From Curtobacterium sp. VKM Ac-1393 (lineage in GTDB: Bacteria; Actinomycetota; Actinomycetes; Actinomycetales; Microbacteriaceae), in assembly GCF_015350995.1 (NCBI RefSeq), contig NZ_JADKRW010000001.1, positions 695,702-759,701 on the forward strand: a stretch of 64,000 bases of DNA, written 5' to 3'. Below the pieces are notes generated by a model, which made no database searches, was not told the origin of the DNA, and saw only the letters and a program-made list of their open reading frames with translations. Of the stretch, positions 3,037-50,318 are shown piece by piece. The position numbers and the translations under genes were made by a program. How positions within the stretch are numbered: the stretch's first letter is position 1; each line of letters starts with the position of its first letter.

Positions 3037-3129
3037 ATGGAGTCCTCGACGAAACACACGATCGCCACGCTGCTGGTCTGCGCCGCCATCGTCGCCATCA
3101 CCGTCATCGCCCTCGCCGCCATGCGATGA
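3037..3129 (+). CDS. possible 30-residue single-helix membrane peptide
   Basis: A short ATG frame encodes a peptide starting MESSTKHTIATLLV and ending LAAMR, almost all of it one hydrophobic helix of about 20 residues flanked by charges. It ends 8 bases before the kinase GTG start, so it would be the first gene of the two-component unit. No clear ribosome binding site precedes it (GTCTGGTGGC), and short hydrophobic frames arise easily in GC-rich DNA. It could be a small membrane partner of the sensor kinase or chance. Confidence 0.3.
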   Translation: MESSTKHTIATLLVCAAIVAITVIALAAMR

Positions 3130-3136
3130 TCGAGCC

Positions 3137-4348
3137 GTGACGGACCGGCGCACGTTCATCCGGCCGCTCGCCGCCCGTTCGATCGCCGTGGACGTGGCGT
3201 GGGCGGTCCTCGCGGCGTTCGTCTTCCTGCTGCCGATCGAGGTCGAACTCGAGCACGCGAGCTTCCTCGCGGTGCTCGCCGCCGCCGGTGCGATCGCGCT
3301 CCGTCGGGTCTCCCCGTCGGCCGCGATGCTGCTGGTCGTGGTCCTCGGGATCGTCCAGGTCGGCGGCGGTGAGCGCCCGTCACTCGTCGACCTCGCCATC
3401 TTCGTCGTCATCGGCACCACGGCCGTCGTCGGCACCCGGACCGAGGTCATCGTCTCGGGCGTGCTCGCGTTCGTCGCCGGGGTCGGTGCGACGCTCTACC
3501 TCGCCGTCACCGGCTTCCGGTACCTCGTGCTGCTCAACGGCCCGCGCGACCAGGCCTTCCTCGCGATGGCCGCACCGGTCGCCGCACTGCTCGGGGTGTG
3601 GGCCGGCGGGGTCGCCGTCCGGGCCTTCCGCTCGCGCGACCGCGAGTCGGTCCGCCGCGCCGACGCCGAGGCGGCAGCGTCGCGCGCCGAGGCCGTCGCC
3701 ACCGAGGCCGAGGCGACCGCCACCCGGGCCATCGACGTCGCGGAGTCCGAGCGCATCCGCGCGGACATCGCCCGCGACGTGCACGACGTCGTCGGCCACT
3801 CGCTCGCGGTGATCATCGCGCAGGCGGACTCGGTGCCGTTCCTGGCCGACGAGGCCCGCATCCGCGAGGTCAGCGCCACCATCGCCAGCACCGCCCGCAG
3901 CTCCCTGGTCGAGGTCCGCCAGGTGCTCGGGCACATCGACGGCTCCGGGGAGACGACCGACCCGGGCTCGCTCGAGGAGATCGTGCAGGGCATCCGCGAG
4001 GCCGGCGTCGACGTCGACCGCACCGTCCGCGGGGTCCCGATCACACTCCGACCCGACACCGGCACCGCTGCCCGTCGCGTGCTGCAGGAGATGCTGACGA
4101 ACGCGCTCCGGCACGGTGCTCCGGGGCTGCCCGTCGTGGTCCGTGAGACCTGGCGGAGCGCCGACGTCGTGCTCGAGGTCGAGAACGTCGTCGGTGACGG
4201 CACAACCGGGGGCTCCGGCCGGGGGATCGACGGCATGCACACCCGCCTCACCGCACTCGGCGGGTCGTTCGACGCCGCCGCGCTGGACGACGTGTTCGCC
4301 GCACGCGCCCGCATCCCGTTCGACGTCCAAGGGGGACCCGTCCGATGA
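3137..4348 (+). CDS. sensor histidine kinase, NarL-type two-component system
   Basis: 403-residue membrane kinase, start taken as the GTG at 3137 (VTDRRTF), because upstream sequence in this frame is low-complexity Ser/Pro/Arg. The N-terminal half holds five or six hydrophobic segments (residues about 15-160) with little extracellular loop, then a coiled-coil stretch rich in Ala/Glu/Arg (about 170-205). The HisKA_3 dimerisation motif is DIARDVHDVVGHS, with the phosphorylatable His at residue 216. The ATPase part includes an N-box (LQEMLTNALRHG) and a G-box (GSGRGIDGMHTRL). It overlaps the response regulator by four bases, so the two are partners. The lack of a sensor domain outside the membrane suggests it senses membrane or cell-envelope conditions, as DesK/LiaS-type kinases do; the signal itself is not identifiable. 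Confidence 0.9.
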   Translation: MTDRRTFIRPLAARSIAVDVAWAVLAAFVFLLPIEVELEHASFLAVLAAAGAIALRRVSPSAAMLLVVVLGIVQVGGGERPSLVDLAIFVVIGTTAVVGTRTEVIVSGVLAFVAGVGATLYLAVTGFRYLVLLNGPRDQAFLAMAAPVAALLGVWAGGVAVRAFRSRDRESVRRADAEAAASRAEAVATEAEATATRAIDVAESERIRADIARDVHDVVGHSLAVIIAQADSVPFLADEARIREVSATIASTARSSLVEVRQVLGHIDGSGETTDPGSLEEIVQGIREAGVDVDRTVRGVPITLRPDTGTAARRVLQEMLTNALRHGAPGLPVVVRETWRSADVVLEVENVVGDGTTGGSGRGIDGMHTRLTALGGSFDAAALDDVFAARARIPFDVQGGPVR

Positions 4349-5016
4349 CCGACCCGATCAGGATCCTGCTCACCGACGACCAGGCGCTGTTCCGCGCCGG
4401 TCTGCGCGTGGTGCTCGACGCGCAGGACGACATGCAGGTGGTGGGCGAGGCCGCGGACGGTGCCGAGGCGCTCGCCCGCATCCAGGAGCTCCGACCCGAC
4501 GTGATGCTGCTCGACATGCGCATGGCCGGCATGGACGGCGTCGAGACCGTCCGTCAGCTGTTCTCCGGCGCCGTCGAGGGCCCGCTCCCCCGCGTCGTGG
4601 TGCTCACCACGTTCGGGCTCGACCCCGCCGCCGCGACCGCGATCCGGCTCGGCGCGAGCGGCTTCCTGCTCAAGGACGCCACGCCGACGTTCCTGTTCGC
4701 CGCGGTCCGCGCCGTGCACGAGGGCAGCTCGGTGATCGCTCCGAACGACCTCGCGCAGCTCTTCGGCGCCGACGTCGCGAAGGCACCCGCCCCGCAACCG
4801 CCGGAGTTCCAGGCGCTGACCGAACGCGAGCGGGTGGTGTTCGGCTGGGCGTCCCGCGGGCTCTCGAACGCCGAGATCGCGACGAAGGAGTACGTCACCG
4901 AGTCGACCGTGAAGACGCAGATCTCGAGCATCCTCGGCAAGCTCTCGCTGCGGGACCGCGTGCAGCTCGTGGTCTACGCGCACGACCACGGGCTGGCGGG
5001 TACCCGCGACGCTTGA
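4345..5016 (+). CDS. response regulator, NarL/FixJ family
   Basis: 223-residue regulator. The N-terminal receiver starts IRILLTDDQALFRAGLR, with phospho-acceptor Asp57 in VMLLDMRMAG, the Thr of VVVLTTFG, and Lys in FLLKDATP. The C-terminal LuxR-type HTH is LTERERVVFGWASRGLSNAEIA and TVKTQISSILGKL. It is expressed with the preceding kinase through an ATGA overlap. Phosphorylation would promote dimerisation and DNA binding. The targets are unknown; no adjacent transporter gene, as often found with LiaR/DesR pairs, is present. It is convergent with the isomerase gene, with nine bases between stops. Confidence 0.93.
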   Translation: MTDPIRILLTDDQALFRAGLRVVLDAQDDMQVVGEAADGAEALARIQELRPDVMLLDMRMAGMDGVETVRQLFSGAVEGPLPRVVVLTTFGLDPAAATAIRLGASGFLLKDATPTFLFAAVRAVHEGSSVIAPNDLAQLFGADVAKAPAPQPPEFQALTERERVVFGWASRGLSNAEIATKEYVTESTVKTQISSILGKLSLRDRVQLVVYAHDHGLAGTRDA

Positions 5017-7589: not shown

Positions 7590-8977
7590 GCGTTCGTCTC
7601 CTTCGACGTCGTGGTGCGGACATGCGAGGTGTCGAGGAGATCGTCCGCCTTCGACCCCCGGAAGAACTTCGTGCAGAAGATCATCACGGCCGCGACGAAC
7701 GCCAGGACCCCGAGCGAGACGATCCCGAACGCGCCGCTGTCGGTCGGCACCACCTCGTTGATCGCCGTGCGCATGATCGGGGCGACGAACCCGCCCAGGT
7801 TGCCGAGCGAGTTGATCAGGCCGATGCCCGCCGCGGCGGCTGCCCCGGTGAGGAACGCCGTCGGGTACGCCCACGTGATCGGGCCGACGGCCAGGAAGCT
7901 CGCGACCGCCAGCGTGATGAACACGATGCCCAGGATCGGCTGCCCGTTCGCGCCGGCCCAGGCCGAGCCGAGGATCGAGAGCCCGGTCGTGATGTAGAAC
8001 ATCGTGCCCCAGCGACGGCGACGACCGACCGAGTCCGCCTTCGAGCCGACCAGGTAGCAGGCCACCAACCCGACGAGCCACGGGATCGCGGTGACCAGGC
8101 CGACCTGCCACCCGACGTCCTGCCCGAGCAGCGAGGACACCTGCTGCGGCAGGTAGAACGTCGTGCCGTACACGGCGACCTGCAGGCAGAAGTAGATGAT
8201 CGTGAAGTACCAGACCCGGCCGCTCGCCATGGCCTTCCAGATGCCGGTCGGACCGTCGGCGCTGCGGGCGGTGTCCTCGCGTGCCATCGCCGCCGTGAGC
8301 GACTGCTTCTCGCCCGGCTCGAGCCACTTCGCCTGCTGCGGACTGTTCGTCAGGAACACCAGGGCCGCGATGCCGGCGAGCACCGCCAGGATCCCCTCGC
8401 CGAAGAACATGACCTGCCAGCCGTGGAACGGGGTCGCCTGATCGCCGAAGCTCAGCAGTCCGCCGGACAACGGGGCGCCGATCATCTGCGAGAACGGCTG
8501 CGCCAGGTAGAAGATTGCGAACATCCGCACACGCACCTTGTTCGGGAACCACTCCGACAGGTACATGATCACACCCGGGAACAGCCCCGCCTCGGTCACA
8601 CCGAGGATGAAGCGCAGGACGATGAACATCGTGTCGTTCGTCGTGAAGGCGAACAGCGCGGCGACGATGCCCCACGTGACCGCGATGCGGGCGAGCCAGA
8701 ACCGGGCGCCGAAGCGCTTGAGCAGCAGGTTCGACGGGATCTCGAAGATCGCGTAGCCGATGAAGAAGATGCCGGCGCCGAGGGCGAAAGCCGCGTCCGA
8801 GATGCCGCGGTCGACGCTCAGTGCTTCTTCGGCGAAGCCGACGTTGGTGCGGTCGAGGAACGCGACGAAGTACAGGATGACGAGCATCGGCATCAGGTGC
8901 GTCGTCGCCTTGCGGATGGCGGACTGCAGGCCGGGGTCGTTCGTCGACCCGAGCGCGGGGGCAGGGGGAAGGGACAC
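7586..8977 (-). CDS. MFS transporter, anion:cation symporter type
   Basis: 463-residue carrier with twelve predicted membrane segments. The early motif AFLDRTNVGFA and GYAIFEIPSNLLLKRFGAR are typical of the ACS branch of the major facilitator superfamily, which imports organic anions such as sugar acids, tartrate or hexuronates with protons. The start is the GTG at 8977 (VSLPPAP), preceded by AAAGGAG nine bases upstream. It lies 120 bases after the SDR gene, the widest gap in this operon, and overlaps the kinase gene by four bases. The transported compound is probably the acid substrate consumed by the neighbouring dehydrogenases. Confidence 0.87.
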   Translation of the reverse strand: MSLPPAPALGSTNDPGLQSAIRKATTHLMPMLVILYFVAFLDRTNVGFAEEALSVDRGISDAAFALGAGIFFIGYAIFEIPSNLLLKRFGARFWLARIAVTWGIVAALFAFTTNDTMFIVLRFILGVTEAGLFPGVIMYLSEWFPNKVRVRMFAIFYLAQPFSQMIGAPLSGGLLSFGDQATPFHGWQVMFFGEGILAVLAGIAALVFLTNSPQQAKWLEPGEKQSLTAAMAREDTARSADGPTGIWKAMASGRVWYFTIIYFCLQVAVYGTTFYLPQQVSSLLGQDVGWQVGLVTAIPWLVGLVACYLVGSKADSVGRRRRWGTMFYITTGLSILGSAWAGANGQPILGIVFITLAVASFLAVGPITWAYPTAFLTGAAAAAGIGLINSLGNLGGFVAPIMRTAINEVVPTDSGAFGIVSLGVLAFVAAVMIFCTKFFRGSKADDLLDTSHVRTTTSKETNA

Positions 8978-40861: not shown

Positions 40862-40911
40862 CACCCCATCCAACTCGTGGAGGATCCGAGCCCCGATCCG
40901 CCACCCGTTGA

Positions 40912-41163
40912 TCATCGGCGCGGGGCTCGATCCCGACGCTTCTCCCGACCAGCGAGAACGACGACGCCGGTCACGCACACAACCACACCGCCCAGCAACC
41001 AGTCCCGAACCGACGTCAATCCGGCGTTGGCTGCAACGACACCGACCACCACGATCGCGAGCAGCGGAAAACACAGGCCGACAAACCTTGGCAGGTACCG
41101 CCCTGCCAGCCAAGCCATCCCGAAGAATGCCGCGACGGCGGCGGCGATGAAGAAGTCCATCAT
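40912..41163 (-). CDS. small three-helix membrane protein of the bacteriocin cluster
   Basis: 83-residue protein starting at the ATG pair MMDFF (41163), with an AGG ribosome site five bases before; longer frames upstream are antisense noise. Three hydrophobic helices: FFIAAAVAAFFGMAWLAGRYL, FVGLCFPLLAIVVVGVVAANA and WLLGGVVVCVTGVVVLAG. Its start overlaps the stop of the three-PH-domain protein by four bases, so it is the last gene of the leftward operon that faces the bacteriocin gene. Small hydrophobic proteins of this kind often serve as immunity proteins in leaderless bacteriocin clusters. That role is inference from position and topology. Confidence 0.65.
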   Translation of the reverse strand: MMDFFIAAAVAAFFGMAWLAGRYLPRFVGLCFPLLAIVVVGVVAANAGLTSVRDWLLGGVVVCVTGVVVLAGREKRRDRAPRR

Positions 41164-42677
41164 GTTCCTGCCCTTTCTGTGGTGGATGATCGCGGACAAC
41201 CGATCATTCGGCGCAACCGAAGGCTTGTGCGCACGTCGACCGGCCACACCGTGAGGCGCACGACATGGCGGCCGCGAAGGTTGAAGACTTGGAATCCCGC
41301 GTGGCGGAACGCCCCGCTCCAGCGGGAGAAATCGATGGCTTCTTCAGGGATCAGCCACACGGATCGGAACGCGACACCTCGACGCGCTACGAGCCATCGC
41401 GCACCGCGCTGATTCGTGGCGACATCGATCCTCCCGAATCGAGAATCCGTAAAACGCCAGATCAGCAGGTACGCCGCTGTCAGTGCGAGGGCTGGTCCGG
41501 GACCGACACCGACCCAGGACGCGACAGTCAACCCAGCGATGACTCCAGCACTGCTTCCCACCATCAACCAGGCACGTTGCGGGCGTGCCGGGGACGAAAA
41601 GCGGGCGGGATCCACGTCGGTGAGGGCATTGAGCATGCGCAGACCGTTCGAAGCACTCGTCAACGGGAGGAGCCTGCCTTCCGTGATCTGACCGCCGTCA
41701 CCACGGATCATCGCCCGGAGCGACGCGCGGCGAAGCGGGAGGAGCAGGAGAGGCTGGCGGAGTTCGTACGCCGACACCGCGTTTGCGGCGACCACACGAT
41801 GTTCTCGTTGCGTCAAGCCGGCTCGGAAGACGAGCTCCCCGGAGGTCCCGAGCGCTACGACGAAACGGCGGTACTTCAGCCACGCGAAAAGCGACCCGTA
41901 CGCAATGCTGCACGCAGCACAAGCGCTCAGGATGACGGTCAACCGCCACCCGCCGACCCCTCGAAGGTCGTCGACCGTCGGGAGGATTCCCCGTACCGAC
42001 CCGATGAAGGATGCCACTTCGGCGACCAACGAGTAGAGACTCGGGATGAACCACAGGAATGCCCCCGATGCGATGCCGATGAGGACGAAATCCCATCCCC
42101 GCAGGACGGGTGAGATCACCGAATGGGCGTCGGCCCCGGTCTTCACCTGAACCGAGTGAGGGTTACGCCGGAGCGGCGATTCCCCTGGTGCCGACCGCGA
42201 GGCCCGATGATGAAGTCGTTGTATCCTCGCCGCTTCACGCTCGCTGATACTCGGAATTGCCTCCCCGGCACCATCGGAAGCATTGACCGAGATTCGTACA
42301 TCCGTGACGCGAAGGAGACGTTGTACCAGCGACTGGCTCTGCGACACGGACGAAACGGATCGCCAGGGAAGCAGCTTGTCCTGTCGTCCGACGACACCCT
42401 TGCTGATCCTGACACCGGAACCATCTGCTGCGTAGCGAAGCGAGATCCAGTCGTGGAAGACGACGAAGAACCTGGTGTACGAGTAGTAGGCACCGAAGAC
42501 GAGAACGGGCATGCGCAACCCGTCGGGCGCGAGGGCGAAGATCGTCACGAGGAAACCGAGAACGATCCAGCCGGAGCGCATGGCGGCAAGCCCGCGAACG
42601 ATCAACAGCCGAGCGTGCGGGCGCCGGAGCCTCCTCCGATCAGGCACTTCTGGCCAGACTCGCTGCGACGATGACAT
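41160..42677 (-). CDS. membrane protein with bacterial PH (bPH2, YdbT-like) domains
   Basis: 505-residue protein, start taken at ATG 42677 (MSSSQRVWPE), overlapping the preceding gene by 38 bases. Three PH-like modules alternate with hydrophobic segments. The clearest is VRISKGVVGRQDKLLPWRSV followed by SVSQSQSLVQRLLRVTDVRI, which matches the YdbS/YdbT pattern 'i.r.tr.iPl.rIQsve..qs.lqrlfgl..v'. A second is near FVVALGTSGELVFRAGLTQ and a third near WLVARRGVAFRSVWLIPEEA. bPH2 proteins of this kind accompany leaderless bacteriocins such as lacticin Q and aureocin A53, where they contribute to self-protection or secretion. Base composition is less GC-rich than in neighbours. Confidence 0.75.
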   Translation of the reverse strand: MSSSQRVWPEVPDRRRLRRPHARLLIVRGLAAMRSGWIVLGFLVTIFALAPDGLRMPVLVFGAYYSYTRFFVVFHDWISLRYAADGSGVRISKGVVGRQDKLLPWRSVSSVSQSQSLVQRLLRVTDVRISVNASDGAGEAIPSISEREAARIQRLHHRASRSAPGESPLRRNPHSVQVKTGADAHSVISPVLRGWDFVLIGIASGAFLWFIPSLYSLVAEVASFIGSVRGILPTVDDLRGVGGWRLTVILSACAACSIAYGSLFAWLKYRRFVVALGTSGELVFRAGLTQREHRVVAANAVSAYELRQPLLLLPLRRASLRAMIRGDGGQITEGRLLPLTSASNGLRMLNALTDVDPARFSSPARPQRAWLMVGSSAGVIAGLTVASWVGVGPGPALALTAAYLLIWRFTDSRFGRIDVATNQRGARWLVARRGVAFRSVWLIPEEAIDFSRWSGAFRHAGFQVFNLRGRHVVRLTVWPVDVRTSLRLRRMIGCPRSSTTERAGT

Positions 42678-43092
42678 CGACGTCCTGTGGCGACATCGGA
42701 AGCAGCGTGACCTCCTTCGCGGGCGTGAAGATGACGCACCTTGCCAACCCGAGCCGATGCAGCAGCGGACCAGTCTGCTGACGGATGACCACGACCTTCG
42801 GCCAGGGAACGTGCTCCACCGATCGCCACAACGCGCCACGATGGATCACCAGTCCGGTGGGTGCCAGCTCGACCCGGAACCGACGAACTCCCGCCGGTGC
42901 GATGAGCGCCGACTCGATAGCCGCACTCAACCCGGCCAACACCACGCCCATGCGACAGTAGAGCGCCCACTCCGGAGGCAGGAGAAGAGAGAGGAGCACT
43001 GCAGCAGCTGCGACCAGTACAGCCCCGCCACACGCTTCGACTCGGGCCACGATCACCGCGCGTGCTGCGGCTCCGATCGAGAGTCGATCCAT
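42640..43092 (-). CDS. bacterial PH-domain membrane protein (YdbS-like)
   Basis: About 150 residues; ATG at 43092 (MDRLSIGA) used, though in-frame GTGs lie three and six bases upstream. Two membrane helices (GGAVLVAAAAVLLSLLLPPE and MGVVLAGLSAAIESALIAP) precede one PH-like module (LAPTGLVIHRGALWRSVEHVPWPKVVVIRQQTGPLLHRLGL shown here in part: TGLVIHRGALWRSVEHVPW, then QQTGPLLHRLGL). YdbS and YdbT homologues are usually encoded side by side, as here. It follows the ABC ATPase by 16 bases. Its likely role is bacteriocin immunity or export together with the next two genes. Confidence 0.72.
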   Translation of the reverse strand: MDRLSIGAAARAVIVARVEACGGAVLVAAAAVLLSLLLPPEWALYCRMGVVLAGLSAAIESALIAPAGVRRFRVELAPTGLVIHRGALWRSVEHVPWPKVVVIRQQTGPLLHRLGLARCVIFTPAKEVTLLPMSPQDVDVIVAASLARSA

Positions 43093-43108
43093 CACCACGT
43101 CCGATGGA

Positions 43109-43990
43109 TCATTGGACGGCGGTGACCGCGTCGTGGTACTGCTCCTCGAGACTCTGGACGTCGACTGCGAGGTGCGTCAGGACCGCCCCGACGTCTCGGG
43201 CGAGACAGAACACTTGGGCAGCGTCGAGGCCGTCGACCGCGAGGGTGCCGCCCTCATCCTCGCGAACCGTCGCCGATCTCTCCTGGAGAGCCGCGCGCAG
43301 CTCGCGGTGCCCTGCCTCGGCATGCACGCGGACGGTTCGCTCGAGTGCCGTGCGGTCTCGCTCCAGCTCGGACACGGAGCCTTCTGCCAAGAGCAGCACC
43401 CGGGTCGCGATCCGTTCCATCTCAGCCATGAGGTGAGACGAGAGCAAGACGGCCCCACCGTTGCTCGTGAACTCGCGGATGAGGTTCCGCATCCACAAGA
43501 CGCCATCCGGGTCGAGCCCGTTGAGTGGCTCGTCGAGAATGAGTGCATCGGGTGAGTCAACGAGCGCGAGCGCGAGTGCAAGCCGTTGACGCATCCCGAG
43601 CGAGAGGTGCTTCACTCGTCGACGTGTGGCTTCCCCGAGGCCGACCTCGACCAACCGAGCTCGGACGTCCGATCGAGCTGCACGACCTCCCGCGCTGAGG
43701 AGCGCGATGGCCACGTGCTGCTGGCAGGTGAGTCGAACGTCCAGCCACCCTGGGTCGAGAAGTGCTCCGATCCGAAGATCCGAGCGGCGCTGACCGGGCT
43801 CCGTCGAGACCTGACCCGCAGCCGGAGCGTCGATCCCCGTCACGATCCGCAGCAGTGTGCTCTTTCCTGAGCCGTTCGCACCCAGGAGGCCGAGGACTTC
43901 GCCTCGACGGAGTTGGAGGTCGACGCCAGTCAGCACGTCGCGGCTCCCGAAGCGCTGACGGATCCCGATCAGCTCGATCATCGCGGTCAT
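43109..43990 (-). CDS. ABC transporter ATPase of the bacteriocin cluster
   Basis: 293-residue ATPase. Walker A is LLGANGSGKSTLL, signature LSLGMRQRLALALAL, Walker B ALILDEPLNGLD and switch SSHLMAEMERI. The pattern is that of single-domain ATPases of bacteriocin self-protection and export systems (BcrA/LanF-like). The ATG at 43990 is chosen because GGAGG lies six bases upstream and because it overlaps the permease stop (ATGA); a further ATG at 44002 is possible. It would power the adjacent permease, moving peptide out of the membrane to the outside. Confidence 0.87.
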   Translation of the reverse strand: MTAMIELIGIRQRFGSRDVLTGVDLQLRRGEVLGLLGANGSGKSTLLRIVTGIDAPAAGQVSTEPGQRRSDLRIGALLDPGWLDVRLTCQQHVAIALLSAGGRAARSDVRARLVEVGLGEATRRRVKHLSLGMRQRLALALALVDSPDALILDEPLNGLDPDGVLWMRNLIREFTSNGGAVLLSSHLMAEMERIATRVLLLAEGSVSELERDRTALERTVRVHAEAGHRELRAALQERSATVREDEGGTLAVDGLDAAQVFCLARDVGAVLTHLAVDVQSLEEQYHDAVTAVQ

Positions 43991-44775
43991 CGGATCCTCC
44001 ATCGGAGCAGCGAGACGAAACCGACAGCGAGGAGAACGCCGTCCATCAAGCAGAACCTCGCCGCGGCCCCGATCTGAGTGGTCGGGTCGAGCATTGCGGC
44101 GGTGAGGGTGACGGGAGCGATCTGCAGGAGTGGACCGCTGAAGCTCGGTACCCAGATGCCCGCGATCGCGACGACGAGTGGGAGAGCCCAGATGAACGCG
44201 AGGTACGCGAACACCGTCCCGACGACGGACCGTACGATCATCCCGATCGCAGCGCCCAGCAGTGCGAAGAAGGCATGCAACGCGGGCACCGCGAGCCAGT
44301 AGGGAATCGTGTCTCGGTCAAGGCTTGCTCCGCGGTGCACTGCGATCGGCGCGATCAAGAGCATTGCGCCGACGCCGGTGATGACCGCGGTCGAGACGAG
44401 CACGATGATCTTCGCGCAGAACACCAGCGCCCGGCCCTTCATCTGGAGGAGCGTGAGCGCGAACTGCCGGGACGACAGATCGGCAGAGGCGAACAACGCA
44501 GCCCCAAGGCCGACGAAGAAGGGGCTGATGTCACCGCCAGCGGCCACGGCGCTGAGGATCTGTTCGTCAGGCGCACCGAGTCCGAGGGCGAACAAGCGGC
44601 CAGCGCCGAGGGCGATAGCGCCGGCCGCGGCCACGGCGAGCAAGACGCCTTGCACACGCAGACTCACGAAACGGCGGAATTCTGCTCGCCAAGCGCGCGC
44701 CCACCGGCCCCGCCGATGAAGAAGCGTCGGCATCCCCGTCATGATCCGCGCCGGAATCGCTGGACCGGGCTCCAT
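43987..44775 (-). CDS. ABC transporter permease of the bacteriocin cluster
   Basis: 262 residues if ATG 44775 (MEPGPAIP) is used, which has GAGG seven bases before; ATGs at 44742 and 44733 are alternatives. Six hydrophobic segments are seen, including LRVQGVLLAVAAAGAIALGA, IIVLVSTAVITGVGAMLLIAP and VVGTVFAYLAFIWALPLVV. It resembles ABC-2-type permeases of the LanE/G or BcrB kind. It is the first gene of the leftward operon facing the bacteriocin gene, 258 bases away, and is coupled to the ATPase. Inferred role: expulsion of the bacteriocin, giving immunity and possibly secretion. Confidence 0.82.
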   Translation of the reverse strand: MEPGPAIPARIMTGMPTLLHRRGRWARAWRAEFRRFVSLRVQGVLLAVAAAGAIALGAGRLFALGLGAPDEQILSAVAAGGDISPFFVGLGAALFASADLSSRQFALTLLQMKGRALVFCAKIIVLVSTAVITGVGAMLLIAPIAVHRGASLDRDTIPYWLAVPALHAFFALLGAAIGMIVRSVVGTVFAYLAFIWALPLVVAIAGIWVPSFSGPLLQIAPVTLTAAMLDPTTQIGAAARFCLMDGVLLAVGFVSLLRWRIR

Positions 44776-44910
44776 GCGCGGACCTCGGCAACGGACGCAT
44801 CCGTTGCACTCCACGTCGACCTGACCCTGAACACGAGCATCGCAACGCCCCCTCTCGTCGGAAGACTAACCGGTCTGTTCGGCACAATTTCACTCGCAAC
44901 TGGTTTGTAA

Positions 44911-44947
44911 TGTCACATTTGACAGGTACAACCCGGGGCTGCAAGGT
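44911..44947 (+). promoter_or_regulatory. candidate promoter and operator of the bacteriocin gene
   Basis: A perfect -35 hexamer TTGACA (44919-44924) is followed after 17 bases by CAAGGT (44942-44947), a weak -10 keeping the key A and T. The -35 is the right arm of a small dyad, TGTCA-catt-TGACA (44911-44924), nested in a wider GGTTTGTA / TACAACC symmetry. The stretch is AT-rich for this genome. Confidence 0.5.
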
Positions 44948-45033
44948 TGTCCTCGCCGCGCCGAAGCGGTCGGGCTGCCGAGTGCACGCGGGGGACCGTT
45001 CAATGCCGATCAACATGTGAAGGGGGCGCAGCA

Positions 45034-45195
45034 ATGGCTGTGTTCGCACGAATCCTCCAGCTCCTCGCCAAGTACGGAGCTCGCGCCGTCAACTGGGCGA
45101 AAGCCAACATCCAGCGGGTGCTCAACTGGATCAACGCCGGGCAGGCGATCGACTGGATCGTCTCGAAGATCAAGCAGATCCTCGGCATCCGCTAG
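45034..45195 (+). CDS. leaderless bacteriocin, lacticin Q / aureocin A53 family
   Basis: 53-residue cationic amphipathic peptide, the same length as lacticin Q as I recall it. The ATG at 45034 has AAGGGGG seven bases upstream (45020-45026); an in-frame ATG at 44947 lacks such a site and would add a non-homologous 29-residue leader. Near-identical blocks include QLLAKYG (9-15), NAGQAIDW (34-41) and VSKIKQILGI (43-52); Trp21, Trp32 and Trp41 are kept while Trp23 of lacticin Q is Lys here. Eight Lys/Arg against one Asp give a strong positive charge, and many Lys are Arg, fitting a high-GC host. Such peptides are made without leader or modification and permeabilise membranes of Gram-positive bacteria. 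An ABC/PH-domain operon faces it. Confidence 0.92.
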   Translation: MAVFARILQLLAKYGARAVNWAKANIQRVLNWINAGQAIDWIVSKIKQILGIR

Positions 45196-45224
45196 TGACC
45201 GGCTCCAGCTTGAAGTGACGGCGG

Positions 45225-45255
45225 AGCCCACCATTGCTGCTGGCCGTGGTGGGCT
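45225..45255 (+). terminator. hairpin after the bacteriocin gene
   Basis: AGCCCACCA (45225-45233) and TGGTGGGCT (45247-45255) form a perfect 9-bp stem with a 13-base loop, 29 bases after the bacteriocin stop. The tail (TCGTCATTG) is only weakly T-rich, so termination may be partial. Confidence 0.55.
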
Positions 45256-45303
45256 TCGTCATTGAGCATTGCGATCGTTGACCACTTGATCAACAATGGC
45301 CGG

Positions 45304-46338
45304 ATGGACGTCGTCATCGCTCCCCCGCACCCGTCTCCGCTGCACCAGGACTCCGGCACACCCCGCCGCGCGGTCCGCGTCGCGCTGGTGCAGATCCGGT
45401 GGCTCGCAGACCCCGCTGCACACCGCGCACAGCTCGCCGACGGCATCGCCACCGCCGCGGCGAACGGCGCCGCAGCGGTGTTCCTGCCCGAGCTCACCCT
45501 CCGCCGCTACCCGGGCGACACCCCGGCGAACGGCACACCGAAAGACCTCGCCGAGTCGCTCGAGGACGGCCCGACGGTGGCCTTCGCCCGCGCACAGGCG
45601 ATCGAGCACGGCGTGTTCGTCCACGCCTCCCTGTACGAGCGGCCCGCAGACGACGACCAGCCCGACGACCCCCGCGGCTACAACACCGCCGTCCTCGTCG
45701 CCCCCGACGGCACCCTGGTCGGCCGGACCCGGAAGACCCACATCCCGATCAGCGCCGGCTACTACGAGGACACGTACTTCCGCCCGGGTGCGGACGACGA
45801 CGCGTTCCCGGTCTACGAGCCTGCCGGACTCGGCACCCGCATCGGGCTGCCGACCTGCTGGGACGAGTGGTTCCCCGAGGTAGCCCGGTCATACGGTCTC
45901 GCCGGGTCCGAGGTCCTGGTGTACCCGACGGCGATCGGCTCCGAACCGACGTTCCCCGCGTTCGACACCGCCCCGATCTGGCGGCAGGTCATCGTCGCGA
46001 ACGGCATTGCCGCCGGTCAGTTCATGGTCGTGCCGAACCGCTGGGGCGACGAGGGCGACATCACCTTCTACGGGTCGTCGTTCATCTCGGACCCGTTCGG
46101 CCGCGTGCTCGCCGAGGCTCCGCGTGACGCCGACACGGTGCTCGTCGCCGACCTCGACCTCGACGCCCGGACCGAGTGGCTCCGGCTGTTCCCCTTCTAC
46201 GTGACCCGACGACCGGACCTCTACGACGGCCTCGTCGCACCGGTCGACGAGGACCGCCACGCGTACGGCGCACGCGACGCGATCGACGCGGCCCAGGCCG
46301 TGGCGGCGACCGACGCCGGGCAGGAGGCACGCGCATGA
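45304..46338 (+). CDS. aguB: N-carbamoylputrescine amidohydrolase
   Basis: 344-residue nitrilase-superfamily enzyme. The Glu-Lys-Cys triad is visible: FLPELTLRRY, RTRKTHIPIS and Cys185 in GLPTCWDEWFPE; the last motif is close to the CWDQWFPE of known N-carbamoylputrescine amidases. It hydrolyses N-carbamoylputrescine to putrescine, CO2 and ammonia. The ATG at 45304 (MDVVIAPP) is used; a TTG frame start at 45262 would add 14 residues and lies close to the preceding hairpin. The stop overlaps the agmatine deiminase start, which carries out the preceding step. Confidence 0.9.
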   Translation: MDVVIAPPHPSPLHQDSGTPRRAVRVALVQIRWLADPAAHRAQLADGIATAAANGAAAVFLPELTLRRYPGDTPANGTPKDLAESLEDGPTVAFARAQAIEHGVFVHASLYERPADDDQPDDPRGYNTAVLVAPDGTLVGRTRKTHIPISAGYYEDTYFRPGADDDAFPVYEPAGLGTRIGLPTCWDEWFPEVARSYGLAGSEVLVYPTAIGSEPTFPAFDTAPIWRQVIVANGIAAGQFMVVPNRWGDEGDITFYGSSFISDPFGRVLAEAPRDADTVLVADLDLDARTEWLRLFPFYVTRRPDLYDGLVAPVDEDRHAYGARDAIDAAQAVAATDAGQEARA

Positions 46339-47366
46339 CGTGGGTGATGCCTCCCGAGACGGCTCCGCAGGAACGCACGTGGATGGCGTTCCCACGCCCC
46401 GGACTCACGCTGGGTGACGACGCGGCGAGCGCCGAGGCGGCGCGACGGACGTGGGCGACCACCGCGAACACGATCAGCGAGCACCAGCCCGTCACCGTCG
46501 TCGTCGACCCGGTGGCGCGCAGCGACGCACGACGACTGCTGTCGGAGCAGGTCGAGGTGCTCGAGGCGCCGCTCGACGACTTCTGGATGCGCGACATCGG
46601 CCCGACGTTCGTCGTCGACGACGTGACCGGCGAGCTGGGCGCCGTGGACTGGGTCTTCAACGGCTGGGGCGCGAACTCCTGGTCGACCTGGACCCGTGAC
46701 GCCGAGGTCGCCGCCACGATCGCGGCCGCCGCCGGTGCGCAGCGGATCCCGTCGTTGCTGGTCAACGAGGGTGGGGCGATCCACGTCGACGGCGCGGGGA
46801 CGGTCCTGGTGACCGAGACCGTGCAGCTCGACCCGCGACGGAACCCCTACGCCGACCGGTCCCGGGTGGAGCAGGAGCTGGCGCGGACGATCGGTGCGAC
46901 CGAGGTCATCTGGCTCCCACGCGGCCTGACCCGCGACTACGACGGGTTCGGCACGCGCGGGCACGTCGACATGGTGGCGACCTTCGCCGGAGCGGCGATG
47001 GACACCGTCCTGCTGCACGCCCAGCCGGACCCGGGTCATCCGGACCACCTGGTGATGCCGCAGATCCGTCGGGTGCTGGAGCAGGCGACGGACGCGATGA
47101 TCGTCGAACTGCCGGCCCCGTCGACCCTGACCGACGACGGTGGCCCGGTCGACTGGAACTACGTCAACCACGTGGTGGTGAACGGCGCCGTGATCGCCTG
47201 CGCGTTCGGAGACCCCGTCGCCGACGACCGTGCGCGGGGCATCCTCGCCGACGCGTACCCGGGCCGTCAGGTGCGCTCGATCGACGCCCGCGAGGTCTTC
47301 GCGCGCGGCGGTGGGCTGCACTGCATCACGCAGCAGGAACCCGCGACCCTGCCCACCGGAAGCTGA
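46335..47366 (+). CDS. aguA: agmatine deiminase
   Basis: 343-residue peptidyl-arginine-deiminase-fold enzyme. MPPETAPQERTWMAFP is the typical opening; DDFWMRDIGPTFVVDD and GHVDMVATF carry substrate and catalytic residues, and Cys330 in GGGLHCITQQEP is the nucleophile. It converts agmatine to N-carbamoylputrescine and ammonia. ATG at 46335 overlaps the amidase stop and has CAGGAGG seven bases upstream. With the amidase it makes putrescine from agmatine. Its stop codon touches the stop of the convergent esterase gene with no base between. Confidence 0.93.
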   Translation: MTWVMPPETAPQERTWMAFPRPGLTLGDDAASAEAARRTWATTANTISEHQPVTVVVDPVARSDARRLLSEQVEVLEAPLDDFWMRDIGPTFVVDDVTGELGAVDWVFNGWGANSWSTWTRDAEVAATIAAAAGAQRIPSLLVNEGGAIHVDGAGTVLVTETVQLDPRRNPYADRSRVEQELARTIGATEVIWLPRGLTRDYDGFGTRGHVDMVATFAGAAMDTVLLHAQPDPGHPDHLVMPQIRRVLEQATDAMIVELPAPSTLTDDGGPVDWNYVNHVVVNGAVIACAFGDPVADDRARGILADAYPGRQVRSIDAREVFARGGGLHCITQQEPATLPTGS

Positions 47367-48593
47367 TCAGCCCGAGCCCGAGCCCACGCCCGAGCCCGAG
47401 CCCGAGCTCGCGCCAGCGCCAGCGCCAGCGGCCGCGCCCGCGGGTGCCCCCAGTCCCACCCGCGGCTGCAACCAGTCGAGCCCCGCGGCGAGCGCTGCCC
47501 GCGCCGTCACCCAGCTGTGCCGCCCGCCCGGCACCACCCACGTGGCAACGTGCATGCCGGCTGCCCGGGCACGCTCCGCCATCACGGGCATGACCGGCCC
47601 GTAGGTGGTGTCGAGGGCGCCCGCCGCGAAGAACGCGTTGGACGCCCGGAACGGCGCACCAGCCCGGAGCAGCGCCGCGGGCTGTGCTGCAGCCCACGCG
47701 GCACGGTCACCGGCGAACCCCTCGTCGATGGTCTTCGTCACGCTGCCGAGCGACGGGCCGTCCTCACCGGAGACGTCGACGAGGTTGCCGAACCGCGAGG
47801 GATCGCCCGCCCCGAGCTGGATCGCGCACGTGCCGCCCTGCGAGAACCCGCCGATGGTCCACGCCGACGCCGCGGTCTGCACCTTCAGGTGGCTCGTCAC
47901 CCACGCGGGCACGTCCTGGGTGAGGAAGGTCCGGCTGTTGCCGAGCGCTCCGTCGACGCACATCGGGTTCGCCGACCGCGGCCCGAGCTGGTCGGGCACG
48001 ACAACGATCGGCGCGAGTCCCCGGTCGACGGTGGCGAGCGCGTCCATCGTCTGCTCGATCTGCCCGCCGGTCGCCACGTCCTCGGGACCGGCTCCGCGGG
48101 ACTGGCCGGACAGGAGCACGTCGACGGGCAGCGCCGGTGGGTCCGCGGTGAGCGCGGCCGGGGGCAGGTACAGCAGGGCTTGCCGTGCATCGAAGTGCGA
48201 CCGCGTGGCGGGGATCGTCACCCGGAGCAGTCGCCCCTGCGCGGGCTGGTCGGCGGGTGCGGTCCACGTGGTCGCGAGGTCGAGGTGCGACGGCTCGGGC
48301 GTGGACCCGGGTGTCTCGGCAGCCGGGATGCCGCCGCCGGTCATCGGGGTGCGCGCGCTGGCAGGCGCGCTCGGCGCCGTCGTCGCGTGACCCGTGGAGG
48401 CGCGGCTCGGCTCGGCCTCGCTCGCTCGCCCACCGGCGGCGGGGCCGGTCGCAGAGCCGGCGGCGGGGCCGGTCGCGGAGCCGGTCGCGTGGGCGGCGCC
48501 CCACCCGCCGGCCGCCCCGAGCGCGAGCCCGACCACCAGGCCGGCGGCGAGCAATCCGGTCGAGCGGGAACGGAGCCCTGGTGTCCGCGTCAT
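47367..48593 (-). CDS. secreted esterase-D-like alpha/beta hydrolase with low-complexity tail
   Basis: 408-residue protein, ATG at 48591-48593 (MTRTPGLR). An N-terminal hydrophobic signal/anchor (LLAAGLVVGLALGAAGGWGAA) is followed by a 70-residue Ala/Gly/Thr/Ser-rich linker. The hydrolase domain resembles the esterase/mycolyltransferase (PF00756) group: nucleophile Ser in IGGFSQGGTCA, PIVVVPDQLG, and His in VPGGRHSWVTARAAL. The last 25 residues are Ala/Gly then Ser-Gly repeats (GSGSGVGSGSG), unusual and possibly a cell-wall-exposed spacer. It probably acts outside the membrane. The in-frame extension upstream to 48854 lacks protein character. Confidence 0.83.
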   Translation of the reverse strand: MTRTPGLRSRSTGLLAAGLVVGLALGAAGGWGAAHATGSATGPAAGSATGPAAGGRASEAEPSRASTGHATTAPSAPASARTPMTGGGIPAAETPGSTPEPSHLDLATTWTAPADQPAQGRLLRVTIPATRSHFDARQALLYLPPAALTADPPALPVDVLLSGQSRGAGPEDVATGGQIEQTMDALATVDRGLAPIVVVPDQLGPRSANPMCVDGALGNSRTFLTQDVPAWVTSHLKVQTAASAWTIGGFSQGGTCAIQLGAGDPSRFGNLVDVSGEDGPSLGSVTKTIDEGFAGDRAAWAAAQPAALLRAGAPFRASNAFFAAGALDTTYGPVMPVMAERARAAGMHVATWVVPGGRHSWVTARAALAAGLDWLQPRVGLGAPAGAAAGAGAGASSGSGSGVGSGSG

Positions 48594-48908
48594 CGGTCGT
48601 CCTCGTCCGTACGGCGTCCGGCCCGGTGCCGGTCGTGACGAGCCGATCGTAGGGAGCCGTGCCGAGAGGCACCCTGCCGTTCCGGCTCGCCGGCTGAGCG
48701 TCTTCGTGGCCGGTGCCAGACTGCGGACGACGGGGCGAGAGCAAGCGACACCGCGTACACCGCAGCCTCGGATCCTGTACTCCGTGGTGGGTTCGACGCT
48801 CCCCGCGGCGTCGGTATCGTCAGCGCATCGGTTCACCCGACCCGGTCCGTGCACCGCCGCGCGGACCCCGGCCCCGCGGCTCCGGCTGCGCGCAGGAGGG
48901 AACTCCCC
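48594..48908. promoter_or_regulatory. 315-bp divergent intergenic region
   Basis: This gap separates the esterase and the APC permease. No gene is seen. TACACCG (48756-48762) and TCGGATC (48768-48774) both recur, at slightly different spacing, between gabT and the PucR gene (56441-56462), hinting at a shared regulator site. CAGGAGGG just before 48909 is the permease ribosome site. Confidence 0.3.
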
Positions 48909-50318
48909 ATGGCGTCCACCATCGTCACCGCCCCGCCCGTTCCCGCACGTGGCGGGTCACTGAAGCGGAGCCTCGGACTCTGGGCCATCGTCGGACTCGG
49001 CCTCGGGTACATGACCCCGACGGTGGTGTTCGACACCTTCGGCATCGTGTCCGGGCAGACCGACGGTGCCGTGCCGAGTGCGTACCTGATCGCACTGGTC
49101 ATCATGGCCCTGACGGCGATCAGCTACGGCAAGATGGTCCGGGTCTACCCGGCGGCCGGCTCGGCCTACACGTACGTGCGGGAGTCGATGCACCCGAACC
49201 TCGGGTTCATGGTCGGCTGGGCGTCCCTGCTCGACTACCTGCTGCTGCCGATGGTGAACGCCCTGATCATCCGGCTCTACCTGGAGCAGGTGTTCCCGGC
49301 GCTGCCGTCGTGGGTGACGGTCGTCGTCTACACGGTGTTCGTGACGACGGTGATCTGCCTGTCGATGCGCGGCACGTCGAACCTCAACATGGTGCTGCTC
49401 ATCGGCGCGATCCTGGCGATGATCGCGTTCGTGGTCTTCACCGTCATCGAGCTGGTGCACGGTGCCGGCGCCGGCACGATCGCGAGCACCGAGCCGTTCG
49501 TGCACGACGGCGTGACGATGTCCGCCCTGCTCACTGGTGCGACGGTGGTCTGCTTCTCGTTCATCGGCTTCGACGCCGTGACGATGTACACGGAAGAGGC
49601 GAAGTCGATCCGGATCATGCCGAAGGCGATCATGCTGACGGTGCTGCTCGGTGGCGCGATCTTCCTGGTGTCCGCGTACTTCGCGCAGCTGCGGTTCCCG
49701 ACGAACACCCCGTTCGGCGAGTTCACCGACGACCCGCTGCCCCAGATCGGCCTGCTCGTCGGTGGCCCGGTGTTCCAGGCGGTCCTGGTGTCGGCCGGGT
49801 TCGTCGCCGCGCTGGCGTCGGGGCTCGCATCGCACGCGAGCGTCGCCCGCATGCTCATGGTGATGGGCCGGAACAACGTCCTGCCGAAGCGGGTGTTCGG
49901 CTACGTCAACCCACGCACGCACACCCCGGTGTTCAACGTGGTCTTCGTCGGGGCGGTCACGCTGCTCGCGATGAGCTTCTCGCTCGACACCATCTCGTCG
50001 TACATCAACTTCGGCGCGCTCGTCGCCTTCACCTTCGTCAACGCGAGCGTCATCGTGCACTTCGCCGTCCGGCAGGGCCGCCGCCACACCGCGGGTGACC
50101 GGTGGAAGTACATCGTCCTGCCCGGGCTCGCGATGGTCCTGACGGGGGTGCTCTGGTCGCAGCTCCACGCCGACGCACTGGTCGCAGGAGGAGTGTGGGC
50201 CGCGATCGGCTTCGCCTACCTGCTCGTCATCACGAAGGGCTTCCGGGTGCTGCCGAAGAGCTTCGACGAGAACCAGCCGGTCACCGGCGTCAACAAGCAG
50301 CTGACCGACCAGGCCTGA
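48909..50318 (+). CDS. APC-superfamily amine permease (PuuP-like)
   Basis: 469-residue permease with twelve membrane segments. It starts ATG 48909 with CAGGAGGG upstream. Typical blocks: SLGLWAIVGLGLGYMTPTVVFDTFG, YPAAGSAYTYVRESMHPNLGFMVGW, FSFIGFDAVTMYTEEAKSIR shown in part as FSFIGFDAVTMYTEEAKS, and VFGYVNPRTHTPVFN. It belongs to the amino-acid/polyamine/organocation superfamily. Placement just before an aldehyde dehydrogenase and among putrescine and GABA genes suggests uptake of putrescine or GABA with protons. The substrate is not certain. Confidence 0.86.
   Translation: MASTIVTAPPVPARGGSLKRSLGLWAIVGLGLGYMTPTVVFDTFGIVSGQTDGAVPSAYLIALVIMALTAISYGKMVRVYPAAGSAYTYVRESMHPNLGFMVGWASLLDYLLLPMVNALIIRLYLEQVFPALPSWVTVVVYTVFVTTVICLSMRGTSNLNMVLLIGAILAMIAFVVFTVIELVHGAGAGTIASTEPFVHDGVTMSALLTGATVVCFSFIGFDAVTMYTEEAKSIRIMPKAIMLTVLLGGAIFLVSAYFAQLRFPTNTPFGEFTDDPLPQIGLLVGGPVFQAVLVSAGFVAALASGLASHASVARMLMVMGRNNVLPKRVFGYVNPRTHTPVFNVVFVGAVTLLAMSFSLDTISSYINFGALVAFTFVNASVIVHFAVRQGRRHTAGDRWKYIVLPGLAMVLTGVLWSQLHADALVAGGVWAAIGFAYLLVITKGFRVLPKSFDENQPVTGVNKQLTDQA

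Follow-up and report, generated by a model that had tools for sequence, protein, structure and literature searches.

A probable acquired cluster for a leaderless bacteriocin of the aureocin A53/lacticin Q type in Curtobacterium sp. VKM Ac-1393

A stretch of 64,000 nucleotides from Curtobacterium sp. VKM Ac-1393 (contig NZ_JADKRW010000001.1, positions 695,702 to 759,701), referred to below as the window, holds a short open reading frame whose product resembles lacticin Q. This raises the question of whether the frame is a genuine leaderless bacteriocin gene, how it came to its place in the chromosome, and whether it is accompanied by genes that would export the peptide and protect its producer. 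The answer preferred here, with high confidence, is an acquired leaderless bacteriocin cluster with likely dedicated export and immunity functions. The gene in question is the following:

45034..45195, + strand: gene of a 53-residue leaderless peptide similar to aureocin A53 and lacticin Q (PF11758, NF033881, identity to lacticin Q, dN/dS)

Its translation reads MAVFARILQLLAKYGARAVNWAKANIQRVLNWINAGQAIDWIVSKIKQILGIR and is followed by a stop codon. The first-pass annotation had placed this peptide in the aureocin A53 family and had named a profile search as the test that could overturn the assignment. The search was strongly positive: in Pfam-A, the peptide matched one family only, PF11758 (Bacteriocin_IIi), with 71.8 bits against a cut-off of 25 (E = 4e-20), and in NCBIfam it matched NF033881 (aureocin_A53) with 80.7 bits against a cut-off of 27 (E = 4e-23). 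When aligned without gaps to lacticin Q (PDB 2N8P), 36 of the 53 positions are identical, which is the figure that had been estimated beforehand. Lacticin Q was also the best phmmer match among PDB sequences (E = 2e-20), followed by epidermicin (E = 1.3e-7), aureocin A53 (E = 4.7e-7) and then BacSp222. As for the basic residues, the peptide has 4 Lys and 4 Arg vs. 8 Lys and no Arg in lacticin Q, so that Arg has indeed taken the place of half of the lacticin Q Lys, as had been claimed, and the net charge is +7 vs. +6. Three Trp (21, 32 and 41) are found vs. four in lacticin Q, with a Lys at the position of Trp23. The three Trp are invariant across the 14 rows of alignment A3, all of which are close relatives of the window peptide or of lacticin Q/Z. 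The peptide thus has the family's size (about 50 residues), cationic character and conserved Trp, and its identity to a solved structure suggests a helix-bundle fold of the 2N8P type. A resemblance to FhuF (sub-threshold in NCBIfam with E 0.08, E 0.48 among PDB sequences, and the source name of database entry P0010) was taken as chance. Two database copies of lacticin Z/Q, P0010 and P0008, carry 10-11 extra N-terminal residues, apparently from a start called too far upstream, and the naming of one of them as ferric iron reductase FhuF is apparently a misannotation.

Relatives of the peptide are few. A search of 5.8 billion proteins gave 11 matches with E <= 0.01 among 11 candidates, the query included; six were 53-residue proteins 75-91% identical to it and four were lacticin Q/Z-like proteins with 65-68% identity. 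The genome collection contained three further loci, in Curtobacterium sp. MCPF17_052 (L001), Curtobacterium salicis WW7 (L002) and Microbacteriaceae bacterium PS02333 (L003), whose peptides are 81-89% identical to that of the window (tblastn), with dN/dS values of 0.17-0.24. PF11758 was detected in four of the 66 genomes of the genus, own genome counted, in one of the 398 genomes sampled from the family (the own genome) and in two of the 394 sampled from the class (the own genome and one other, at 26.7 bits). The peptide gene is therefore sporadic in its distribution, and the own genome has a single copy. Carriage by phages, other viruses or plasmids was considered and rejected for the window peptide: no match was found among phage records, the only viral hit was a weak, aureocin-like one (IMG/VR contig L035, 3001-3123, 39% over residues 3-37), and the 15 plasmid records hold only relatives of less than 60% identity.

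The comparison of the four loci also bears on where translation begins and on the signals around the gene:

45020..45026, + strand: AAGGGGG Shine-Dalgarno sequence, 7 nt before the ATG, present in 4/4 loci
44917..44923, + strand: ATTTGAC box, possible -35 element upstream of the peptide gene, identical in 4/4 aligned loci
45220..45262, + strand: GC-rich hairpin just 3' of the peptide gene, possible transcription end (RNA fold)

The sequence GAAGGGGG was found in the window and in L001-L003, and the ribosome site and the ATG of the peptide gene are kept in all four; the AAGGGGG had been pointed out by the first-pass annotation. Its further claim that no leader is present stands as well: the in-frame extensions 5' of the ATG differ among the loci, and in L003 the frame is closed by a stop codon 54 nt before the ATG. 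A start at the TTG at 44947 is unlikely and was rejected, because this extension is not conserved and is blocked by that stop in L003. Judged from this conservation, the peptide is leaderless and its core begins at the initiator Met. The promoter function of the ATTTGAC box is putative, since a sigma-70 consensus scan of 44700-45400 found no promoter. At the other end, RNA folding of 45196-45275 gave -36.2 kcal/mol (z -2.54); no T-tailed terminator was found near the peptide gene, and the hairpin is not conserved in the aligned tails of the relatives.

Five packed genes lie on the opposite strand and read away from the peptide gene:

43987..44775, - strand: presumed ABC transporter permease, 262 aa, six hydrophobic segments (position, hydropathy, weak phmmer similarity; start codon uncertain)
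43109..44002, - strand: ABC transporter ATP-binding protein, 297 aa (PF00005, 92.1 bits)
42640..43092, - strand: small bPH_2 membrane protein, 150 aa, YdbS/DdE-like in size and place (PF03703, 26.5 bits, cut-off 22)
41160..42677, - strand: large bPH_2 membrane protein, up to 505 aa, YdbT/DdF-like (PF03703, 48.9 bits, cut-off 22)
40912..41163, - strand: 83-residue protein with three hydrophobic segments, candidate accessory or immunity protein (Kyte-Doolittle hydropathy, similarity to a C. jeikeium pKW4 protein)

Given these starts, adjacent operon genes overlap at three junctions and are 16 nt apart at the remaining one; in the window, the peptide gene and the five operon genes all have open frames. 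Export and immunity genes close to the peptide are a feature of the family, and here the ATPase and the two bPH_2 proteins are recognised by Pfam and the permease by position and hydropathy. These neighbours, which the first-pass annotation had not mentioned, lend independent support to the family assignment. The permease matched no family in Pfam or NCBIfam, and its likeness to the protein beside the ATPase in the C. jeikeium cluster is weak (phmmer, E 7e-5 in a set of 40 proteins); its homologues in L001-L003 are 54-58% identical. The top NCBIfam model for the ATPase was the lantibiotic-protection ABC ATPase, far below its cut-off, and its closest protein in the same set was the ATPase of the C. 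jeikeium cluster (E 2e-57). Homologues of the large PH protein occur in the clusters of C. jeikeium, Parageobacillus, Terribacillus and Salimicrobium. Homologues of the six genes, in the same layout, were present in the three relatives examined (L001-L003), with operon proteins 41-62% identical to those of the window (tblastn) and dN/dS below 0.4 for all six genes, a rough value as the operon silent sites are near saturation. The match to the large PH gene of L002 is split into two segments that lie 61 bases apart and in different frames (about 4541-4603). The reading frame of this copy thus shifts close to the 3' end, either genuinely or through an assembly error, and the gene may be damaged or misassembled. 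The six genes include no regulator of the LnqR (TetR) or DUF2089 type.

The six genes lie together on a stretch that is extra in the window:

40877..45262, no strand: island of about 4.39 kb with six genes (alignment to relative genome G042; border precision about 10 bases)

In G042 (L019, reversed), position 3067 is the counterpart of window position 40876 and position 3072 that of 45263; the flanking alignments have 93% identity on one side and 89% on the other. About 4.39 kb is thus extra in the window, and the corresponding site of G042 is empty. The island has a GC content of 0.60-0.70, vs. 0.69-0.83 on its right side from about 45.25 to 49 kb; since the left side (40.0-40.9 kb, 0.67-0.70) and the DNA beyond 49 kb (about 0.65) are similar to it, the island is not marked by GC alone. 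Its flanks are a glyoxalase gene and a carbon-nitrogen hydrolase gene. In L001, the island is flanked by a Ppx/GppA gene and by a gene of ABM type that scores 18 bits against a cut-off of 23.1; in L003 an ABM-type gene (27.3 bits) lies on the same side, and the contig ends shortly past the peptide gene. The three relatives L001-L003 carry the six genes elsewhere than the window does, so that at least two locations of the unit are known. At the window's site, genome G048 (L020, 8997-9912) carries about 0.9 kb with another gene instead, which matches Abi_2 (abortive infection-like) marginally (26.3 bits vs. a cut-off of 25.6), so that the site takes up accessory genes and the glyoxalase/hydrolase gap looks like an insertion hotspot. 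No integrase or transposase was seen among the six genes or the flanking genes named, and no flanking direct repeat among the repeat families listed for the window (the largest five of ten). Taken together, the empty site, the sporadic presence and the different flanking genes make acquisition of the island by insertion likely; less probably, the pattern may reflect loss from G042 rather than gain in the window. In L002, an 85-nt partly palindromic repeat, 93% identical, occurs on both sides of the island (3790-3874 and 8261-8345). It was rejected as a target-site scar and reads as a dispersed element, because L001 has one copy only and none is listed for the window. The region 45304-50318 beside the island carries carbon-nitrogen hydrolase, agmatine deiminase-type (PAD_porph) and amino-acid permease genes, a group which resembles an agmatine-to-putrescine pathway.

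The peptide gene and the operon have diverged to different degrees at silent sites. The pS of the peptide gene is 0.31, 0.36 and 0.37 between the window and L001, L002 and L003, respectively, and none of the 982, 840 and 973 operon stretches of 53 codons (overlapping, hence not independent) was at or below these values. The same count gave 0/975 for L001-L003 and 0/839 for L002-L003, the large PH gene of L002 being restricted to its in-frame part throughout. Compared with each other, the closely related L001 and L002 show a weak effect, 119 of 847 stretches being at or below the peptide. When codons for identical amino acids were sampled 5000 times, samples at or below the peptide numbered 0, 5 and 0 for the window vs. 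L001, L002 and L003, and 301, 0 and 1 for L001-L002, L001-L003 and L002-L003, respectively. A baseline from two neighbouring host genes was available for the window vs. G011 only, the genome of L003, with pS of 0.41 and 0.41; in the genomes of L001 (G037, 76% complete) and L002 (G021), searches for these host genes found nothing at 1e-50. Against that same relative the peptide gene has 0.37 and the operon genes 0.57-0.67, so the divergence of the peptide gene is like that of a host gene, and that of the operon is greater. Over the loci, GC3 is 0.87-0.91 in the peptide gene and 0.72-0.85 in the operon; in the window, the operon genes have 0.72-0.81 vs. 0.91 in the neighbouring hydrolase and 0.93 in the dehydrogenase. 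The low silent divergence of the peptide gene is compatible with codon preference from high expression, with RNA constraint, or with an exchange of its segment among islands.

Strong conservation is unusual for an antagonism gene under diversifying selection. This can be read as a sign that the peptide has been domesticated and now serves its producer as a membrane-active or signalling peptide, for instance in surface spreading or membrane stress, rather than as a secreted bacteriocin. A patchy, chromosomal gene in one copy in its own genome, far better conserved than the transport genes and with no regulator among the six genes, would suit such a role; the reading is nevertheless improbable, as export- and immunity-type genes accompany the peptide at all four loci, the island is absent from the close relative G042, and the Trp residues at 21, 32 and 41 are kept and invariant in A3. 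Slightly less probable again is an acquired island that is silent or decaying and kept passively. The sporadic presence (4/66 genomes of the genus), the absence of a consensus promoter in 44700-45400, the operon GC3 (0.72-0.81) below that of the neighbours (0.91 and 0.93) and the frame change in the large PH gene of L002 speak for this reading, against which stand the six open frames of the window, the overlap at three of four operon junctions, dN/dS below 0.4 in every gene, rough as it is with the operon silent sites near saturation, and the conservation of the ribosome site and ATTTGAC box. That the frame is a chance or misread one resembling lacticin Q can practically be dismissed: it is short and has an in-frame TTG upstream, but E-values of 4e-20 and 4e-23 in curated profiles, conservation at the protein level in three relatives and a conserved start all contradict it.

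Within the preferred reading of an acquired cluster for export and immunity, the 83-residue protein calls for separate attention. It is part of the operon in the window and in L001-L003, it has no Pfam or NCBIfam family above cut-off, and in the set of 40 proteins it matched only a protein of C. jeikeium pKW4 (phmmer, E 1e-8). A profile built from five actinobacterial copies retrieved 20 proteins of 55-113 residues with E <= 0.01 out of 4712 candidates, none of which has a precomputed Pfam domain. One of these, P0018, and one of the peptides, P0004, are listed with the same number of contigs and the same longest contig, of 712,044 bases, which suggests that they share it. With its three hydrophobic segments and its place in the cluster, the protein has the marks of a DdD-type protein, three predicted membrane helices being described for DdD of the enterocin DD14 cluster, which it resembles in topology only (PMC13262744). 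DdD is a membrane protein reported there to confer immunity (PMC13262744).

A possible link to a 94-residue Bacillota protein beside DUF2089 was not used as evidence of immunity. In sets of fewer than 50 sequences, the actinobacterial profile matched four Bacillota proteins at 7.7e-6 to 1.1e-3, and the reverse profile matched the C. jeikeium protein at 5e-10 and the Curtobacterium rows only at 0.005-0.39; the hhalign probability between the two groups was 54%. Four further plasmid contexts, from another set of 15 records, were opened (L027-L030, Priestia and Staphylococcus equorum plasmids). In each, a protein of 90-100 residues, related to the 94-residue membrane protein of Parageobacillus, is paired with DUF2089, and no aureocin, PH or ABC gene is listed within 5 kb, in a plasmid gene table that is incomplete. 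There the Bacillota protein is more likely the regulator's partner, and DUF2089 with its small protein is perhaps a regulator-partner module that leaderless bacteriocin clusters have also borrowed. A protein of like size and topology that stands away from listed bacteriocin genes calls for caution when immunity is read from topology. A bolder reading would make the unit a roaming toxin-plus-immunity cassette, with the 83-residue protein, kept in the clusters of both Curtobacterium and Corynebacterium, dedicated to self-immunity, and with the peptide gene frozen down to its silent sites as the export operon diverges; it is tentative, and we consider it rather unlikely.

Known systems place the cluster in a familiar class. 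Lacticin Q and lacticin Z of Lactococcus lactis (lnqQ, lnqBCDEF) are likewise leaderless and of 53 residues, the window peptide being 66% identical to lacticin Z. The lacticin Q and aureocin A53 clusters are reported to encode ABC and YdbS/YdbT-like proteins, with an ABC transporter and two YdbS/YdbT-like proteins in the case of lacticin Q, a set comparable to that of the window (PMC10311245, PMC8657885). In L. lactis, LnqEF is given as the minimal lacticin Q immunity unit and LnqBCD as accessory (PMC10311245), and LnqC/LnqD as well as Orf7/Orf8 of aureocin A53 are reported to resemble YdbS/YdbT (PMC8657885). For enterocin DD14, deletion of ddE or ddF, which encode PH-type proteins of 141 and 458 residues, is reported to stop export and trap the bacteriocin in the cell (PMC8657885). 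The window differs from the lacticin Q system by its high-GC host and by six genes without an LnqR-type (TetR) regulator. A close counterpart in an actinomycete is the C. jeikeium pKW4 cluster. Each of the six components has an equivalent there, and the order of permease, ATPase, small PH and large PH genes agrees with that of the window. Its small PH protein is an unannotated ORF of 152 residues (PF03703, 30.8 bits, cut-off 22), while the annotated PH protein scores 42.8 bits. That cluster differs in being plasmid-borne, in its peptide (43% identical), in an extra 265-residue protein, in having all genes on one strand downstream of the peptide vs. the divergent operon of the window, and in its small three-segment protein, which precedes the permease and stands last in the window. 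In Parageobacillus thermoglucosidasius pNCI001, the peptide gene is divergent from the PH pair and the ABC genes, as in the window, but the peptide has 48 residues (47% identical) and a DUF2089 gene lies on its other side; the geobacillin 6 (geo6) cluster, likened to pNCI001 by type, has the same kinds of gene but two permease genes (PMC10311245). As a whole, plasmids of Parageobacillus, Terribacillus, Salimicrobium and S. epidermidis carry a peptide of the aureocin family with two PH proteins and ABC genes. Concerning the L. plantarum plasmid, one PH protein is listed, a 147-residue neighbour falls just under the bPH_2 cut-off (21.6 vs. 22), and no ABC gene is listed near the peptide.

The occurrence of the family in a high-GC host is less novel than the first-pass annotation had implied: the find itself stands, but the pKW4 peptide is already annotated, and a 2024 survey mined 757 aureocin A53-like peptides, 97 of them in Actinomycetota, with singleton peptides reported in Curtobacterium, Microbacterium and Frondihabitans and two synthetic actinobacterial peptides reported active (PMC11580447). 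Arcanocin and arachnicin, leaderless peptides of Actinomycetota, belong to the same family and phylum as the window peptide and are described as having about 54% identity or less to lacticin Q or Z; Lactococcus lactis HP served there as indicator strain for arcanocin (PMC11580447). Among the literature matches listed, there was no characterised leaderless bacteriocin of Curtobacterium. The class is thus known; the window peptide is a new or already listed member of it, of which the insertion site and the cluster are described here.

By analogy with the family, the peptide would be translated without a leader, be active on leaving the ribosome and fold as a cationic helical bundle (+7). The ABC transporter, together with the two PH-domain proteins, would carry it out of the cell, where it would permeabilise the membranes of nearby competing Gram-positive bacteria. 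The same transporter, and perhaps the 83-residue protein too, would lower the level of the peptide in the producer's own membrane. The first-pass annotation had proposed a membrane-active peptide made ready to work, which we likewise infer.

With this locus, the actinobacterial leaderless bacteriocins gain a complete and compact cluster of six genes in 4.4 kb, with an empty site in a relative, a combination that lends itself to simple heterologous expression and to gene-by-gene tests of immunity. By what means producers of leaderless bacteriocins tolerate a peptide that is already active inside the cell is, according to the literature, poorly understood (PMC13262744). The understanding of the aureocin A53 family as a whole is left unchanged by the window cluster, whose conserved 83-residue membrane protein is a concrete candidate for self-protection of the producer.
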